Origin: Marinobacterium rhizophilum DSM 18822
GTDB lineage: Bacteria; Pseudomonadota; Gammaproteobacteria; Pseudomonadales; Balneatricaceae
DNA length: 64,000 nt
Assembly (NCBI RefSeq): GCF_000378045.1
Contig: NZ_KB899089.1
Span: 310,001 to 374,000 of the forward strand
Direction: 5' to 3'
Below are positions 43,327-61,454 of this stretch, piece after piece (positions within the stretch are counted from its first letter, which is position 1; every line of letters starts with the position of its first letter). The position numbers and the translations under genes were made by a program. Under the pieces are notes generated by a model. The model was not told the origin of the DNA. It worked only from the letters and a program-made list of their open reading frames with translations, and made no database searches.

Positions 43327-44262
43327 ATGCATACTAAAGGATGGTGGGCCTCGCTGTTTGGGTTGGCCGTGCTCTGGACCGCGATGGCATTGGCTGACAC
43401 AGATGACCGGGGCACCGTGATTGTGCCGCAACAGGGCGCACAGCGCGTGGTGGCGATTTCAACTTTTGCCGCCGATACCCTGGTCGCACTGGGCGTTGCG
43501 CCGGCCGGAGCGTCGACGTTCGGTGATCGTCCGGTGGCTGATTTCCTGGGGCCGCTGATGCAGGGCGTGCCGAGCCTGGGACAGCGCGCCAGCACCAACC
43601 TGGAACAGCTGTCCGCGCTGCAGCCCGATCTTATTCTGGCCATTCGGCGCTATACCGAACCCAATGCACAGAAGTTCAGTGCCCTGGCACCTTACTATGC
43701 TTTTGATGTGATCAGCCATGACGATAGCCTGCGGGCGGTAGCGGGCATTGCCACGGCCGTGGGCAAGGCCGCCGAGGGGCAGGCGCTGAATGCCGCTTTC
43801 GAGACACTGGTGGCCGACTATGGCCGCCGCGCACCGGGTGGGGTCAGTGCCGTGCTGCTGGCGGGCAGCGGTGAGGCTCCCTTTGCCTATTACGACCATT
43901 TTCTGACCACCGATCTGCTGCAGCGCTTGAAGGCTACCAACAGCATCGGTCCGTCGCCAACGCCCAGTCAGCCGATTCCGTTTGGCTACCAGCTCAGCCT
44001 GGAACAGCTGCTGGCGCTGAACCCGGATGTGATCTTCATGTTTGACTCCGGTACCCGGCATGCCTATGCAGCCAACCCGATCTGGCCCTATCTGAAGGCG
44101 GTTCAGCAGGGGCGGGTGTATGAGGTGGGCCTGCACTGGAAGGAAGGCGGCGGCCCCATTGCCCGGGAGTACATTCTGCGGGAAATGGCCTGGCGCCTGT
44201 ATCCCGATACATTTGCCCAGCCCAAGCTGCCCGCATCACTGGCCAGCAGGCCCGTGCAATAG
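43327..44262 (+). CDS. iron-siderophore ABC transporter substrate-binding protein
   Basis: 311 residues with an N-terminal signal peptide (about 1-23, cut near AMALA-D) and a TroA/FecB-type periplasmic binding fold: QRVVAISTFAADTLVALGV, LEQLSALQPDLIL and LEQLLALNPDVIFMFD. No lipobox cysteine is seen. First gene of a five-gene iron locus behind a Fur-like site. The ligand is probably a ferric complex; the FecA-like receptor downstream hints at citrate or a similar hydroxycarboxylate. Confidence 0.87.
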   Translation: MHTKGWWASLFGLAVLWTAMALADTDDRGTVIVPQQGAQRVVAISTFAADTLVALGVAPAGASTFGDRPVADFLGPLMQGVPSLGQRASTNLEQLSALQPDLILAIRRYTEPNAQKFSALAPYYAFDVISHDDSLRAVAGIATAVGKAAEGQALNAAFETLVADYGRRAPGGVSAVLLAGSGEAPFAYYDHFLTTDLLQRLKATNSIGPSPTPSQPIPFGYQLSLEQLLALNPDVIFMFDSGTRHAYAANPIWPYLKAVQQGRVYEVGLHWKEGGGPIAREYILREMAWRLYPDTFAQPKLPASLASRPVQ

Positions 44263-44277: not shown

Positions 44278-45303
44278 ATGCTGAACGGAACCTTGCCGGC
44301 GCGGCTGTCTGCGTTGTTACCGGGCGCGGATGTGAAGGGCCCCGGGCTGCTGGCCGGCCTCGCCCTGGCGCTGTTCGTCACCGCCGCGCTGGCCCTGGCG
44401 GCCGGGGCGGTGCCGGTGTCACTGCAGGCGCTCTGGCGCGTGCTGAATGGCCTGGAGGGTGGGCTGCCCGCGATTCTGGTTTGGGAGTTGCGCCTGCCGC
44501 GTTTTCTGGCCGGCCTGCTGGTGGGCGCCAGCCTTGGCGTCGCTGGCTGGGTGATGCAGACGGTGACGCGCAATCCGCTGGCATCCCCGAGTATTACCGG
44601 GGTGGTTGCTGGCGCATCCATGCTGGTGGTCATCGCCCAGGTCTGTTTTGTGGTGAGCGCCAGCTGGCTGCCCTGGCTTGGCATGCTGGGGGGCACGATG
44701 GCTGCGACGATTACCTTTGTGCTGGCCGGGCAGGGGGGCTTTACGCCGTTGCGCCTGGCGCTGGCCGGTATCGCGGTCACGGCGCTGGCCACGGCACTGG
44801 CCACGGCTTTTCTGCTCTTTTCCGGCGCCCAGGCGCAGCAGCTCTACTTCTGGCTGGCCGGCGGGCTGCTGGGACGGGGCTGGAGCCATGTACAGCTGAT
44901 TCTCCCCTGGACCTGTGGCGGTCTTGTGCTGGTACTGTGCTTTTCCCGCTATCTGAACCTGCTACGACTGGACGATGAGGTCGCCCGTGGCCTGGGGGCC
45001 CGTGTCCTTTTCTGGCGGCTGGGATTTGTGGCCATTGCCGTGGCGCTGACCGCGGCAACCGTGGCGGTGGCAGGTCCGGTGGGCTTTGTCGGGCTGGTGG
45101 CGCCGCACCTGGTACGCCTGCTGCTGGGCCCTGATCAGCGGCTGGCGCTGCCGGCGGTCATGCTGCTAGGGGCGCTGCTGGTGACACTGAGTGATTTACT
45201 CGCCCGCACCCTGGCTGCACCGGCCGAACTGCCGCTGGGTATGTTTACCGCGCTGCTTGGCGGGCCGCTGTTTATCTGGCTGATTCGCACGAGGGTTCTG
45301 TAA
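44278..45303 (+). CDS. FecCD-family iron ABC transporter permease (first)
   Basis: 341 residues, about nine to ten membrane helices. FecCD motifs: LRLPRFLAGLLVGASLGVAG, MQTVTRNPLASPSITGV and GPVGFVGLVAPHLVRLLLG. Forms a heterodimeric channel with the next gene, with which it overlaps by one base (TAATG). Confidence 0.92.
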   Translation: MLNGTLPARLSALLPGADVKGPGLLAGLALALFVTAALALAAGAVPVSLQALWRVLNGLEGGLPAILVWELRLPRFLAGLLVGASLGVAGWVMQTVTRNPLASPSITGVVAGASMLVVIAQVCFVVSASWLPWLGMLGGTMAATITFVLAGQGGFTPLRLALAGIAVTALATALATAFLLFSGAQAQQLYFWLAGGLLGRGWSHVQLILPWTCGGLVLVLCFSRYLNLLRLDDEVARGLGARVLFWRLGFVAIAVALTAATVAVAGPVGFVGLVAPHLVRLLLGPDQRLALPAVMLLGALLVTLSDLLARTLAAPAELPLGMFTALLGGPLFIWLIRTRVL

Positions 45304-46370
45304 TGCCGGTACTGACGCAGGCGACGCCCGCCATCCGACGGTGGCGCCTCGCTTGCCCGCGCCTGGGCTGGCTAGCACTGCTGTTGCTGGCGCTTGTGCT
45401 GGCGGCGCTGCTGCTGAACCTGCTACTGGGCGCCGTGACACTGACGCCGCTGCAGGTCTGGCAGGCCCTCAACGGCGAGGGCGACGCGGTGGCGACCGAT
45501 ATTATCTGGAACCTGCGCCTGCCGCGGGTACTGGTGGGGCTGCTGGTGGGCGTGCACTTTGCCATTGCCGGTTCGCTGCTGCAGGCCGTGATGCGCAACC
45601 CCCTGGCGGATGCCGGTGTGCTGGGCATCAATGCCGGTGCCAGCCTCGCCGCAGTGCTGGCCTTTGTCATGGCGGAGCGCATCTGGGGCGACAGCGGCGC
45701 TTATTCGGGCCTGGCACTGAGCCTCGACTGGCTGCCGCTGCTCAGTTGCGCTGGCGGCATTCTGGCGGCCGCCGCCGTTTACCGACTGGGCTGGAATCGC
45801 GGTGTGACACCGGTGCGCCTGGTGCTCAGTGGCATTGCCGTGGCCAGTGTGCTGAATGCACTGGCCACCGGCGTACTGGCGGGCTGGGGATCGATGAATA
45901 CCGAAACGGTACTCATCTGGCTGGCCGGCAGCCTGTTTGGCCGTGGCTGGGAACATCTTTGGGCCCTGTTGCCCTGGAGCCTGTTGGCGCTAAGCCTGCT
46001 GCCGGTGCTGCTCAGCGGTGCCAATCTGCTGCAGCTGGGGGACGATGTCGCCAGCAGCCTCGGCTTGCGGGTGGAGCTGTGGCGTTTTGCGCTGTTACTG
46101 GTGGCGGTGCTCTTTGCCGCCAGTGCAGTGGGGGTAGTGGGGCCGATCGGCTTTATCGGCCTGATCGTGGCGCAGATTGCGCGCCTGAGCTGTGGTCCGG
46201 ACCTGCGCCGCCAGCTGGTACTGGGGCCCTTGTACGGCGCCCTGCTGGTGATGTTGTCTGACCTGCTGGGGCGTCTGCTGATGGTGCCGGCCGAGATTCC
46301 CATCGGTGTGATTACATCCCTGCTTGGGGTGCCGTTTTTTATCTATCTGCTGGCGCGCAAACGGGCCTAG
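45303..46370 (+). CDS. FecCD-family iron ABC transporter permease (second)
   Basis: 355 residues, same fold as its partner: LRLPRVLVGLLVGVHFAIAG, MRNPLADAGVLGINAGASLA and GPIGFIGLIVAQIARLSCG. Ends LLARKRA. Sixteen bases after its stop the tandem array of truncated ATPase copies begins, with the ribosome binding site GGGAGGAA in between. Confidence 0.92.
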   Translation: MPVLTQATPAIRRWRLACPRLGWLALLLLALVLAALLLNLLLGAVTLTPLQVWQALNGEGDAVATDIIWNLRLPRVLVGLLVGVHFAIAGSLLQAVMRNPLADAGVLGINAGASLAAVLAFVMAERIWGDSGAYSGLALSLDWLPLLSCAGGILAAAAVYRLGWNRGVTPVRLVLSGIAVASVLNALATGVLAGWGSMNTETVLIWLAGSLFGRGWEHLWALLPWSLLALSLLPVLLSGANLLQLGDDVASSLGLRVELWRFALLLVAVLFAASAVGVVGPIGFIGLIVAQIARLSCGPDLRRQLVLGPLYGALLVMLSDLLGRLLMVPAEIPIGVITSLLGVPFFIYLLARKRA

Positions 46371-46386
46371 AAGGGAGGAATCGCGG

Positions 46387-46539
46387 ATGTTATCGGCACA
46401 GGAACTGAAGCTGGGTTATGACGACAAGGTCATCGTGCCGCAGCTGAGTCTGGAGGTGGATACCGGCCGGATTCACTGCCTGATCGGCCCAAATGGCTGC
46501 GGCTTGAGTGTGCTGCTGCGGCCCTGGTCGGCTTGTTGA
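46387..46539 (+). pseudogene. truncated ATPase copy 1 (50 codons)
   Basis: Reads identically to the intact ATPase for 39 codons, to GPNGCG. The lysine of Walker A is then replaced (GLSVLL), and a one-base loss shortly after leads to a stop following RPWSAC. It uses the original ribosome binding site after the permease gene. It cannot bind ATP as a transporter subunit; a small product is possible. Confidence 0.85.
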
Positions 46540-46564
46540 AACACGGGCATAGGAGGGACGCCGG

Positions 46565-46765
46565 ATGTTATCGGCACAGCAACTGAAGCTGGGTTATGAC
46601 GACAAGGTCATCGTGCCGCAGCTGAGTCTGGAGGTGGATACCGGTCGGATTCATTGCCTCATCAAGTCCCAACGGCTGCGGCTTGAGTGTGCTGCTGCGG
46701 CCCTGGCCGGCGTGTTGAAACACGGGCATAGGAGGGACGCCGGATGTTATCGGCACAGGAATTGA
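46565..46765 (+). pseudogene. truncated ATPase copy 2 (66 codons)
   Basis: Keeps residues 1-33 of the ATPase with one change (E6Q), then shifts frame to KSQRLRLECAAAALAGVLKH, destroying the P-loop, and ends 22 bases inside copy 3. It has its own AGGAGG site nine bases before ATG. Confidence 0.85.
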
Positions 46766-46944
46766 AGCTGGGTTATGACGACAAGGTCATCGTACCGCAG
46801 CTGAGTCTGGAGGTGGATACCGACCGGATTCACTGCCTCATCAAGTCCCAACGGCTGCGGCTTGAGTGTGCTGCTGCGGCCCTGGCCGGCGTGTTGAAAC
46901 ACGGGTATAGGAGGGAAGCCGGATGTTATCGGCACAGGAACTGA
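46744..46944 (+). pseudogene. truncated ATPase copy 3 (66 codons)
   Basis: Same structure as copy 2. Relative to the intact gene, the first 33 codons carry one amino-acid change (G27D) and silent changes at Leu7, Ile16, Val17 and Leu32. The shifted tail is the same as in copy 2 except near its end (GYRREAG for GHRRDAG). Ends 22 bases inside copy 4. Confidence 0.85.
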
Positions 46945-47123
46945 AGCTGGGTTATGACGATAAGGTCATCGTGCCGCAGCTGAGTCTGGAGGTGGATACC
47001 GGCCGGATTCACTGCCTCATCAAGTCCCAACGGCTGCGGCTTGTGTGTGCTGCTGCGGCCCTGGCCGGCTTGTTGAAACACGGGCATAGGAGGGAAGCCG
47101 GATGTTATCGGCACAGGAACTGA
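46923..47123 (+). pseudogene. truncated ATPase copy 4 (66 codons)
   Basis: First 33 residues identical to the intact ATPase (silent changes only, at Asp13, Ile16 and Leu32), then the same frameshifted tail with LVC in place of LEC. Its stop lies 22 bases inside the real ATPase gene, so translation of copy 4 would run over the true start codon. Confidence 0.85.
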
Positions 47124-47893
47124 AGCTGGGTTATGACGACAAGGTCATTGTGCCGCAGCTGAGTCTGGAGGTGGATACCGGCCGGATTCACTGCCTGATC
47201 GGCCCGAATGGCTGCGGCAAAAGTACGCTGCTGCGGGCACTGGCCGGCCTGCTGAAGCCGCAGCAGGGCCAGGTGTTGCTCGATGGTTGTGTCATTTCCC
47301 GCTGGAAGCGGCGTGAACTGGCGCAGCGTCTGGCGATGCTGCCGCAGCACCCGGTCGCGCCGGAGGGCCTGACCGTGGAACAGCTGGTGCGCTATGGCCG
47401 ATTTCCGTATCAGCGGTTGCTGGGGCAGCAGACGGAACAGGATTTCAAGATGGTGCGCTGGGCGATTCGGGTCACGGGCCTTTCTGGCTTCGAGGCGCGG
47501 CCATTGTCGGCTTTGTCCGGAGGCGAGCGACAAAGGGCCTGGATTGCACTGTCGCTGGCGCAGCAGGCAGGGATTCTGATTCTCGATGAACCGACGACCT
47601 ATCTCGATCTGGGTCATCAGCTCGAGGTGCTGGAGCTGCTGAGCGAACTGAACCGTCAGCAGGGCCTGACCGTCATCATGTCACTGCACGACCTGAACCA
47701 GGCGGCGCAGTTTGGTCATCGCCTGGTGGCCATGCGTTCAGGCAAGCTGGAGCAGGAGGGCACTCCCGCCGAGGTATTGACGCAGGCGCTGCTCGCCGAT
47801 GTGTTCCGGGTGCATGCCCGGGTCGCCCCCGATGTACTGACCGGCAAGCCGCAGTTTGTGCCGGTGTCATCACTGGCTAGGCCAATTCTGTAG
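47102..47893 (+). CDS. iron-siderophore ABC transporter ATP-binding protein
   Basis: 263 residues, complete: Walker A GPNGCGKST (34-42), signature LSGGERQRA (near 138), Walker B ILILDEPTTYLDL and the switch histidine in SLHDLNQ. FecE/FepC type, energising the two permeases. Its own ribosome binding site (AGGAGGGAAGCCGG) is part of the repeat unit, not the ancestral permease-ATPase junction, so the intact gene is effectively the fifth and only functional copy in the array. Expression may depend on read-through and coupling from the short frames upstream. Confidence 0.94.
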   Translation: MLSAQELKLGYDDKVIVPQLSLEVDTGRIHCLIGPNGCGKSTLLRALAGLLKPQQGQVLLDGCVISRWKRRELAQRLAMLPQHPVAPEGLTVEQLVRYGRFPYQRLLGQQTEQDFKMVRWAIRVTGLSGFEARPLSALSGGERQRAWIALSLAQQAGILILDEPTTYLDLGHQLEVLELLSELNRQQGLTVIMSLHDLNQAAQFGHRLVAMRSGKLEQEGTPAEVLTQALLADVFRVHARVAPDVLTGKPQFVPVSSLARPIL

Positions 47894-48002
47894 GCGCGCT
47901 CACCGCAGTGGCTGTACGTGCCGAGAGTCGCTTTTATTTCACTGGATTAGTAATGGCACGTCGCGAGGCAGGGGGATATTCAGCCTCGATTCAATGTTGA
48001 TC

Positions 48003-48021
48003 GGTAATGATAATCTATATA
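48003..48021 (+). promoter_or_regulatory. putative Fur box upstream of the TonB-dependent receptor
   Basis: GGTAATGATAATCTATATA matches the 19-base Fur consensus at 15 positions by eye, 56 bases before the receptor ATG. It suggests a separate iron-repressed promoter for the receptor gene. Confidence 0.75.
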
Positions 48022-48076
48022 CAATTGCGAACACTTATCATTTAGATTTAAAAGAATTACGCAATTGGAGAATGTT

Positions 48077-50173
48077 ATGCCCCGGTCGTCTTGCGGACAG
48101 CAGCCTTTTCGTCCCCGGCTTATGCGAAAGCCGCTGGCATTGGCGGTCAGTCTGGTCGGTATTGCAGCCTGCCAGGCAGGCTGGGCTGATGAGGGTACCG
48201 TTGAGCTGGATGCGCTGACGGTACAGGGAGACTGGATAGGCGCTGCCAGCGAGGAAGAAATCAAGATCTATCCCGGTTCGCGGACGCTGCTGGATCAGGA
48301 GGCATTGCAGGAGAGTGGTGCCCTGCATCTGGAGGATGCGCTGCGTTCGGTGCCGAGCATTCAGATACTGGACGAGACCGGTACCGGCATCCTGCCGAAT
48401 ATTGGCATGCGTGGCCTGAATCCGTTGCGCAGCGAACGTCTGCAGATGCTGGTGGATGGCTATCCCATTGCCATCGGCCCCTACAGCAATGTCGGTGTCT
48501 CGCTGTTCCCGGTTACCTTGCCCAGCATTGATGCGATCGACGTGGTGCGCGGTGGTGCGGCGGTACACTACGGTCCCAACAACGTCGGCGGCGTGATGAA
48601 CTTCCGCACTCGGCCCATTCCGGTCGACACCGAACAGACGTTGCAGCAGCGTCTGGTGATTGCCGAAGAAACCGGCAATGTCTTCAGCGACACCTATTAC
48701 CGTATCGGCGGCTTCGCGACCGATGACCTGGCGCTGCAGTTCCAGGCCAATGTTCAGCGCGGTGACGGTTTCCGCGATCACTCCGATACCGAGGTCAGCA
48801 ACTTTATTCTGGACGCCGAGTACTTCGTGGATGATGTCAATGAAGTGGCCGCACAGCTGCAGTACTACGACGTCGATGCCGAATTGCCCGGTGCCCTCAG
48901 CCCAAGTGCCTACGCCCAGGACTCCACCCAGTCACAGCGCCCGCATGATGCTTATGCCGCCGATATGCTGCGCGGCACCCTGACCTGGACGGCGCGTCCC
49001 AGCGATGCGGTTGAATTCCAGTGGCGCAACTTCGCCCACCGGGCCGATCGTACCTTCTTCTTTGGCCAGGACTTGACCAGCGGTGGACACTGGGCCGACC
49101 CCGAAGCTGATGCCAGCCACGTGGCCGACACGCCGCGTATTTTCCGGGTTTGGGGTACCGAACCACGGCTAACTGTTCGCGAAGGCATCCATACGCTTAC
49201 GCTGGGGTCACGCTACGTCAGTGAAAAGGTTGATTATGACGTCAACCGGGAAGAGCTGGCGACTGGCAGCTCTGCCAATGTCCGGGACTGGCACCTGGAA
49301 ACCGATGCGGTAGCGCTGTACGCCAGCGATACCCTGAGTCTGCTCGATGGCCGTCTGGAAATTACACCGGGTGTGCGCTACGAAGATGTCGAAATGAACT
49401 TCAAGAGCGGTGATGACCGCATTACCAACAGCCCAGACAAGTGGTTGCCTGGCCTCACGGCTGGACTGCAAGCTACCCCCGACCTCTTTCTCTTTGCCAA
49501 CGCGCAGAAGTCCCTGGCACCCGTACAGATTTCCCAGGTTGCCCGGGGAGGCGACATCGGCAATGAAACCGCCTGGAACTACGAACTGGGTGGCCGCTGG
49601 CAGGCGACGCCGGCGCTGGCAACCTCATTAACATTGTTCCAGATTGATTTCGACAAACTGGTCCAGTACAACAAGGCCGGCGATTTCTATGAAATTTTGG
49701 GCAAGCCGCGCCATGAGGGAGTCGAGCTGGAAGCCGACTGGCAAGCGACCGAACAGCTGAACCTGGGCTTGGGATATACCTATCTTGATACCGAACAGCG
49801 GGATGGCAAGTACGAAGGCAACGAACTGCCCAATGCGCCGCACCACCACTTCAGTGCCGAGGCGCGCTACCGCGTCCAGCAGTGGACGGCCAACCTGAAT
49901 GCCCATTATGTCAGCGACAGTTTCAGCGATGCCGACAACACTAAACGGGAAACTCCCAACGGCGATGCCGGCAAGCTGCCGAGCTATACGCTGGTCAATG
50001 CACGCATCGGTCGTGATATTGCGGTGGGCAGTGGCAACAACCTGAACCTTGGTCTGGCGGCGACCAACCTGCTGGACGAAGACTATTACTTCCGCGGCGC
50101 CGATGTCAGCCCCGTTGGGCGGGTACCGGGGGCTGGTCGCGCGTTTATCCTGGAAGGGCGGCTGGATTTCTGA
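48077..50173 (+). CDS. TonB-dependent ferric receptor, FecA-like
   Basis: 698 residues. A basic signal sequence (to about AGWADEG) is followed by a TonB-box-like VELDALTVQG, a plug domain (LPNIGMRGLNPLRSERLQML, IDAIDVVRGGAAVHYGPNNV) and a 22-strand barrel ending in the terminal aromatic residue (LDF). Plug motifs resemble FecA. There is no N-terminal signalling domain of about 80 residues and no fecI/fecR pair, so regulation is probably through Fur only. The ATG with GGAG six bases upstream was preferred to a TTG four codons earlier. Confidence 0.9.
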   Translation: MPRSSCGQQPFRPRLMRKPLALAVSLVGIAACQAGWADEGTVELDALTVQGDWIGAASEEEIKIYPGSRTLLDQEALQESGALHLEDALRSVPSIQILDETGTGILPNIGMRGLNPLRSERLQMLVDGYPIAIGPYSNVGVSLFPVTLPSIDAIDVVRGGAAVHYGPNNVGGVMNFRTRPIPVDTEQTLQQRLVIAEETGNVFSDTYYRIGGFATDDLALQFQANVQRGDGFRDHSDTEVSNFILDAEYFVDDVNEVAAQLQYYDVDAELPGALSPSAYAQDSTQSQRPHDAYAADMLRGTLTWTARPSDAVEFQWRNFAHRADRTFFFGQDLTSGGHWADPEADASHVADTPRIFRVWGTEPRLTVREGIHTLTLGSRYVSEKVDYDVNREELATGSSANVRDWHLETDAVALYASDTLSLLDGRLEITPGVRYEDVEMNFKSGDDRITNSPDKWLPGLTAGLQATPDLFLFANAQKSLAPVQISQVARGGDIGNETAWNYELGGRWQATPALATSLTLFQIDFDKLVQYNKAGDFYEILGKPRHEGVELEADWQATEQLNLGLGYTYLDTEQRDGKYEGNELPNAPHHHFSAEARYRVQQWTANLNAHYVSDSFSDADNTKRETPNGDAGKLPSYTLVNARIGRDIAVGSGNNLNLGLAATNLLDEDYYFRGADVSPVGRVPGAGRAFILEGRLDF

Positions 50174-60906: not shown

Positions 60907-61454
60907 AGTCCGTGCTCCTCGTCAGTCGGCAGCAGGTGGCCATGTCCGCACAGAACCAGCAGGCAGCGGCCAAAGTCGGCGATACCCTGCAGGATCATCA
61001 TGCAGGGCATCACAATCAGGGTGGATTTGAGTATGTAGCGATAGGGGATACCGCCGGCTTCCTGGGAGCCTTCCATCTGAGACCAGGACGTGGCGACGTA
61101 CTCCCATGAGATGACCAGTATGAAAATGGATACCGGCAGTAACAGCAACAGGGTGCCAAACAGGTTGATCCAGGCCTTACCGCGCTCGGATAACGGGCGG
61201 TAGAAAATATCTACCCGCACGTGACCGTCGTGCTTCAGGGTGTAGGCGGCGCCCAGCAGGAAAACAAAGCTGTGCATGTAGATAACCGACTCCTGCACGG
61301 CGATATTGCCGACGTTGAACAGATAGCGCATTACCACCACCACAAAGGTCGTGAGCACCATCAACAGCGTTAGCCAGGAAATAATGCGGCCGCTCCATTC
61401 GCTGAAGCAATCCAGCCATTGGACCAGTCGATTGATCGACGAGAATGAGGACAT
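60903..61454 (-). CDS. TRAP transporter small permease subunit (DctQ type)
   Basis: 183 residues, four helices, with the DctQ pattern VVVVMRYLFNVGNIAVQESVIY and the downstream GHVRVDIFYRPLSERGKAWI. Longer than the minimal 160 residues, as in TakQ-like subunits. First gene of the two-gene permease transcript; divergent from yjaG. Confidence 0.9.
   Translation of the reverse strand: MSSFSSINRLVQWLDCFSEWSGRIISWLTLLMVLTTFVVVVMRYLFNVGNIAVQESVIYMHSFVFLLGAAYTLKHDGHVRVDIFYRPLSERGKAWINLFGTLLLLLPVSIFILVISWEYVATSWSQMEGSQEAGGIPYRYILKSTLIVMPCMMILQGIADFGRCLLVLCGHGHLLPTDEEHGL

Follow-up and report, generated by a model that had tools for sequence, protein, structure and literature searches.

Tandem truncated copies of the fecE start between fecD and intact fecE in Marinobacterium rhizophilum

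In silent-cassette conversion, exemplified by pilS/pilE, truncated gene copies exchange sequence with one full-length gene. Tandem arrays within operons have been described for the MIRU elements, such as that of senX3-regX3, where the units lie between co-directional genes and their short open reading frames (ORFs) may be coupled to the gene downstream, according to PMC12548453 and PMC4213456. The former, a review, describes MIRUs as dispersed, seemingly mobile and coupled to the gene at -4 nt (PMC12548453). The M. tuberculosis VNTR 3239, located upstream of fpg1, is a tandem array that ends at a start codon, and its copy number could affect the gene (PMC2734929).

Here we describe an array in a 64,000-nt stretch of the genome of M. 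rhizophilum DSM 18822 (hereafter the window; genome G000), in which four truncated copies of the fecE start stand head-to-tail behind a fecD-like permease gene and are followed by intact fecE, the ATPase gene (window 46374-47256). The nearest known kind is the operon-internal VNTR or MIRU array, with the difference that the unit here derives from the neighbouring gene and shows no dispersal over the genome. Like a MIRU, the array consists of tandem units with short ORFs between genes of one operon; unlike a MIRU, it occupies a single locus in G000 and, instead of the -4 nt overlap, the ORFs of units 2-4 extend 22 nt into the following unit and the ORF of unit 1 stops 25 nt ahead of the next ATG. 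It resembles VNTR 3239 in ending at a start codon with a copy number that may affect the gene, and differs in that its units are gene starts, none being so described for VNTR 3239 in the excerpted text (PMC2734929). It shares with partial tandem gene duplications the head-to-tail copies of part of an adjoining gene, yet here the start alone is repeated, several times and within an operon, each repeat provides a start site, and the intact gene comes last. As in the pilS/pilE cassettes, the truncated copies appear to exchange sequence with a full gene; unlike those cassettes, they are near-identical to the gene, lie directly ahead of it and give no sign of selected diversification. The initial annotation knew of no described transporter locus of this kind, a statement borne out only weakly by our finding no such arrangement in searches of open-access papers.

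The array within a FecBCDE-like operon

The genes surrounding the array (Table 1) are predicted to form a FecBCDE-like operon. The intact fecE-like gene encodes an ABC_tran domain with Walker A and adjoins FecCD permeases, with PF00005 and PF01032 both above cut-off, and the fecD start overlaps the fecC stop by 1 nt. The best NCBIfam match of the intact product is FecE (NF008409) at 296 bits, under its equivalog cut-off of 375, so that the families do not settle the substrate. Ahead of the receptor gene, window 48000-48040 is AT-rich with TGATAAT- and TTATCATT-like words, and this stretch is a candidate Fur site by resemblance to the motif.

Table 1 Features of the fec operon and its array in the window; units 1 to 4 and intact fecE each begin with their ATG
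Feature	Coordinates	Strand	Remarks
FecB-like periplasmic binding protein	43327..44262	+	PF01497, 74.7 bits (cut-off 27.5)
fecC-like permease	44278..45303	+	PF01032, 303.6 bits
fecD-like permease	45303..46370	+	PF01032, 288.7 bits
Unit 1	46387..46564	+	178 bp; ORF 46387-46539, 50 aa from own ATG
Unit 2	46565..46743	+	179 bp; ORF 46565-46765, 66 aa, overlapping next ATG
Unit 3	46744..46922	+	179 bp; ORF 46744-46944, 66 aa
Degenerate tail of unit 3 (probe)	46838..46922	+	Broken P-loop region, fecD-end junction, ribosome-binding site
Unit 4	46923..47101	+	179 bp; ORF 46923-47123, 66 aa
Intact fecE-like ATPase (fifth unit)	47102..47893	+	263 aa; PF00005, 113 bits
TonB-dependent siderophore-receptor-like protein, downstream	48077..50173	+	TIGR01783, 277.3 bits (cut-off 223.5)

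Tandem Repeats Finder (TRF) reports the array at 46384-47256 with a period of 179, 4.9 copies, 93% matches and a score of 1492, the top score among its four rows for the window. The repeat pattern is far beyond chance. The copies are spaced by 178, 179, 179 and 179 bp, the unit length of 178-179 bp given in the initial annotation; its four truncated ATPase starts between the permease and the intact ATPase are likewise confirmed by TRF, spacing and ORFs alike. The fecE start is indeed present in each unit, but where about 33-39 codons of it had been proposed, the close resemblance spans about 32-33. Beyond this point the P-loop is broken, as had been noted: relative to fecE, units 2-4 carry a +1 shift and later a -1 shift, which turn IGPNGCGKST into IKSQRLRLEC, and the same region of unit 1 reads IGPNGCGLSV. 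Unit 1 is fecE-like up to GGCTGCGGC, with the degenerate tail beyond, and is a visible recombinant between fecE and the tail; its ABC_tran match is below threshold (22.2 bits against a cut-off of 25). A ribosome-binding site is retained in every unit, and in unit 4 the tail provides both the leader of intact fecE and its ribosome-binding site.

Occurrence in relatives and exchange of sequence with fecE

We searched the genus in seven genomes, one per species. G002, assembled as one contig of 5.2 Mb, carries three 182-bp units and an intact fecE at the same junction, with the same degenerate tail. The fecD/fecE junction is clean, with no array, in G001, in G004 and in both fec operons of G006. 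For G003 and G005 even the best ATPase matches are distant ones (E 5.8e-29 and 7.4e-41, respectively). Between species the unit number is 4, 3 or 0. The initial annotation had made its case depend in part on whether any relative carries the array, and the one-contig genome does. An assembly artefact in G000 is scarcely credible: its assembly has 58 contigs and the exact unit number rests on that assembly, but several bases distinguish the units from each other, and the one-contig G002 has an array with a sequence of its own. The two fec operon copies of G006 lie on G006:C7 and G006:C8 and show about 80% identity to FecE of the window.

In an rpoB tree of six genomes rooted on G006 (G005, whose gene is split over two contigs, was left aside), G002 branches first and G000 next, followed by G003 with G001 and G004, at support values of 88 to 100. 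One gain with one loss, or one gain with a transfer, would both fit this tree.

The tail probe from unit 3 matches only G000 and G002, both in the genus, among 116 genomes of the family. Among 390 genomes of the order it gives two matches, its own genome and a 25-base match in G233. It has no match in plasmid records, and an exact 31-base pattern has none in viral contigs. We rejected a mobile element on these grounds, given the confinement of the probe to two of 116 family genomes and the empty plasmid and viral searches. Within the G000 genome, the tail probe matches the array only, and the whole array gives one further match, 57 bases in an ATPase-like stretch. To cover fecE relatives more widely, 95 loci were scanned for self-repeats near the gene, comprising the 80 top-ranking of 587 loci, among which this genus was not represented, and 15 others. 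No array of ATPase starts was found among these 95, with about 450 bp upstream covered at the minus-strand loci of the 15, where a more distant array could be missed. Three loci had other repeats: in L062 a short, low-identity permease match, in L090 a repetitive neighbouring protein, and in L012 (L012:1-1100, from G010 in another genus of the family) a GC-rich, GGCCTGAACGGCCAGAGGGTCTGCGGG-like repeat family downstream of the fecE relative.

Comparison of the two arrays reveals a concerted pattern. Over the first 96 bases, the units and fecE are 94-99% alike in G000 and 98-100% alike in G002, compared with 83-86% between the two species. The units and intact fecE thus appear to exchange sequence within each species, since these bases match their own fecE better than the other species' array. 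This homogenisation within a genome (94-100% within against 83-86% between) is a further likeness to partial tandem gene duplication with concerted evolution.

The tail behaves differently. The tails of G000 units 2-4 are 89-93% identical to those of G002, with up to 40 consecutive identical bases, and the tail of unit 1 is 84-85% identical. For reference, the fecE-tonB spacer is 58% identical between the two species and the fourfold sites of fecB-E 65-69%. The tail is therefore better kept than free sequence, though not exceptionally, as 18% of 83-nt windows in aligned G000/G002 DNA reach 76/83. A free-running relic should differ more than a tail at 89-93% beside a spacer at 58%, and either a late transfer between lineages, after which the N-terminal part was overwritten by the host gene, or a constraint on the tail would be needed; both are possible. 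We dropped tail conservation as proof of function, because 18% of the aligned windows are equally conserved and because transfer explains it too. In the G002 spacer itself (L036:6431-6693), GTGAATTT- and CGTGATT-like repeats occur in short runs, which the G000 spacer lacks.

Taken together, we favour, with a probability of about 0.6, a duplicated fecD/fecE junction that has been resized and homogenised by recombination and is tolerated because every unit supplies a start site. A segment reaching from the fecD end through about 53 codons of fecE would have been duplicated in tandem, as the joint suggests, and the copy lost its P-loop through the small indels and substitutions that are visible in the units. 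Recombination among the units and with the intact gene would then have altered the number of copies and preserved the likeness of the first 96 bases to the host's fecE. The concerted pattern is directly apparent, and homologous recombination or slippage would be its presumed cause. Exchange in the N-terminal part would change the number of units with fecE left whole, and an exchange of the first unit with the gene could delete the array exactly and without a scar. The clean junctions of relatives may have arisen in this way. The decaying duplication suggested in the initial annotation is largely upheld by this reading, except that the first 96 bases have been kept similar to the species' own fecE and that the array is common to a second species.

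We also considered whether the units act as a sequence reservoir, mutating freely and feeding changes into the FecE start by conversion. The visible exchange between units and gene is in line with this idea, as is the finding that FecE of G002 departs from that of G000 at 7 of the 32 N-terminal residues, compared with 18 of the remaining 231 (Fisher p 0.020). However, the same excess is seen in G001/G004, a pair lacking the array (4/32 against 6/231, p 0.023), none of the unique changes in the first 32 FecE residues belongs to G000, and FecE is cytoplasmic, hence with no known reason to diversify. The model, which we regard as highly improbable, was dropped on account of the equal excess in the array-free pair.

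Start signals, short reading frames and regulation

The strong ribosome-binding sites reported initially are confirmed at all five G000 starts, where Shine-Dalgarno (SD) pairing is -10.7 to -11.3 kcal/mol; the four starts of the G002 fecE array reach -7.7 to -10.7 kcal/mol, and -8 kcal/mol is attained by 4.3% of the 968 ATGs of the window. Each unit ends in a ribosome-binding site and an ATG, signals from which ribosomes would restart at each unit and at fecE, and the array may be tolerated because they can always do so. Translational coupling is lost more rapidly as an overlap lengthens than as a gap widens, according to a review (PMC12548453). If so, coupling across the 22-nt overlaps would be weak, and initiation would have to depend on the strong SD.

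The strongest rival to the tolerated duplication is that the array tunes FecE: the number of units would set FecE translation or mRNA relative to the permease, would shift fast by recombination and would be selected under varying iron. The differing unit numbers of the species (4, 3, 0), the location of the units inside an operon with strong start sites and the well-conserved tail all agree with this, and there is a precedent in M. tuberculosis, where longer repeats upstream of fpg1 accompany higher fpg1 mRNA in the excerpted report (PMC2734929). Against it, no promoter-like site was found in window 46300-47300, and the tail RNA folds no better than shuffled sequences (four folds, z-scores -0.34 to 0.55). 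Arrays are also present at unrelated genes of G002, which suggests a mutational habit. We therefore consider such tuning, which the initial annotation had raised as a copy-number-variable switch of ATPase translation, possible but unlikely. A search for terminator-like sites gave one match, inside fecD and at chance level.

Another alternative is that the truncated ORFs are translated and useful, either as decoys of the FecE N-terminus or as a new tail peptide; the initial annotation had likewise raised a source of small proteins mimicking the ATPase N-terminus. The ORFs are open in G000 units 2-4 and in all three G002 units, and an in-frame indel of 3 nt separates those of the two species. 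Additionally, 8 of 10 changes in the N-terminal part of the degenerate units are synonymous (P 0.004), although the change at position 96 and that at position 58, which is common with intact G002 fecE, may lack independence. This excess could be caused by conversion from fecE or by selection on the ORFs, the former being expected to leave the same signal. In the tail, residues vary freely across species despite similar DNA, and the differences are mostly amino-acid changing, which speaks against a conserved peptide. Unit 1 of G000 is in another frame and stops at 50 aa, and the ORF of unit 2, the one 66-aa ORF searched, has no NCBIfam or Pfam family match. A useful peptide is thus very unlikely and the proposal of mimic proteins finds little backing; the truncated peptides are most likely by-products of the duplicated junction.

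If the duplicated junction is indeed tolerated, an operon can hold several hundred bases of broken gene between two cistrons while the second is probably still expressed, since the duplicated piece comes with a start site. Annotation may mislabel such units as small proteins or pseudogenes. Relatives with four, three and no units, together with the array-rich G002, offer a natural system for partial gene duplications, and they pose the question of whether these are neutral debris or a quick retuning of operon stoichiometry.

Tandem arrays elsewhere in the genus

Tandem arrays were also found at other genes of the genus. At the fecC/fecD junction of G002 (L036:3809-4014) lie two mini-ORFs of 27 and 39 aa, each a fecD head fused to a fecC tail and linked by 1-nt stop/start overlaps, which can be read as a duplicated junction. 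Ahead of an intact sbcD-like gene, G002 has three truncated starts of 19, 19 and 32 aa (L258:1074-1501), absent from all six other genomes of the genus. These units are not coupled and have a weak SD (-4.3), so the transparency to translation proposed for the fecE array is not a general rule. In G004, the 3' end of an asnC-like gene is repeated in tandem as a 175-bp copy next to the receptor gene, near the fec operon (L038:8623-8958); copies of gene 3' ends occur in G002 as well. The names sbcD, asnC, trkH and carnitine dehydrogenase are presumptive, assigned from the sequence rather than taken from family searches. We count the arrays at the sbcD-like, fecC/fecD and asnC-like genes in favour of the tolerated duplication, as the genus builds them elsewhere too.

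These loci also invite a more speculative reading, which we consider improbable: arrays at operon junctions would be a selected, reversible dial, in which the number of start-site units sets the ATPase-to-permease ratio and the chain of units is erasable with no scar. The units would originate from the gene that follows them and be renewed from it by recombination. Candidate instances would be the fecE array, with its tail conserved in two species, and the coupled fecC/fecD mini-ORFs of G002.

Among the genomes surveyed, only G002 clearly stands out as array-rich. In 1.2 Mb of this genome (G002:C1, 1-800000 and 3440001-3840000), TRF found 16 arrays with a period of at least 80, two in the fec operon and 14 outside. 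The corresponding numbers are two in 400 kb of G000 (one outside the fec operon), none in 400 kb of G001 and none in 200 kb of each of two other genera. Self-BLAST clusters, a looser measure, number 30 in the 1.2 Mb of G002, four and five per 400 kb in G000 and G001, respectively, and one in each of the two other genera. The clusters read were the 12 that lie beyond the fec operon in G000 and G002 and, in a second set, 17 of 19, all but the two of lowest identity (at 60988 and 178262). Eight of the 17 G002 clusters were judged to overlap a plausible gene end as called by a simple ORF caller, seven at the 3' and one at the 5' end; several others resemble tRNA neighbourhoods or repeats within long ORFs. 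The surveyed arrays of G002:C1 have periods of 80-450 bp, and several of them overlap gene ends.
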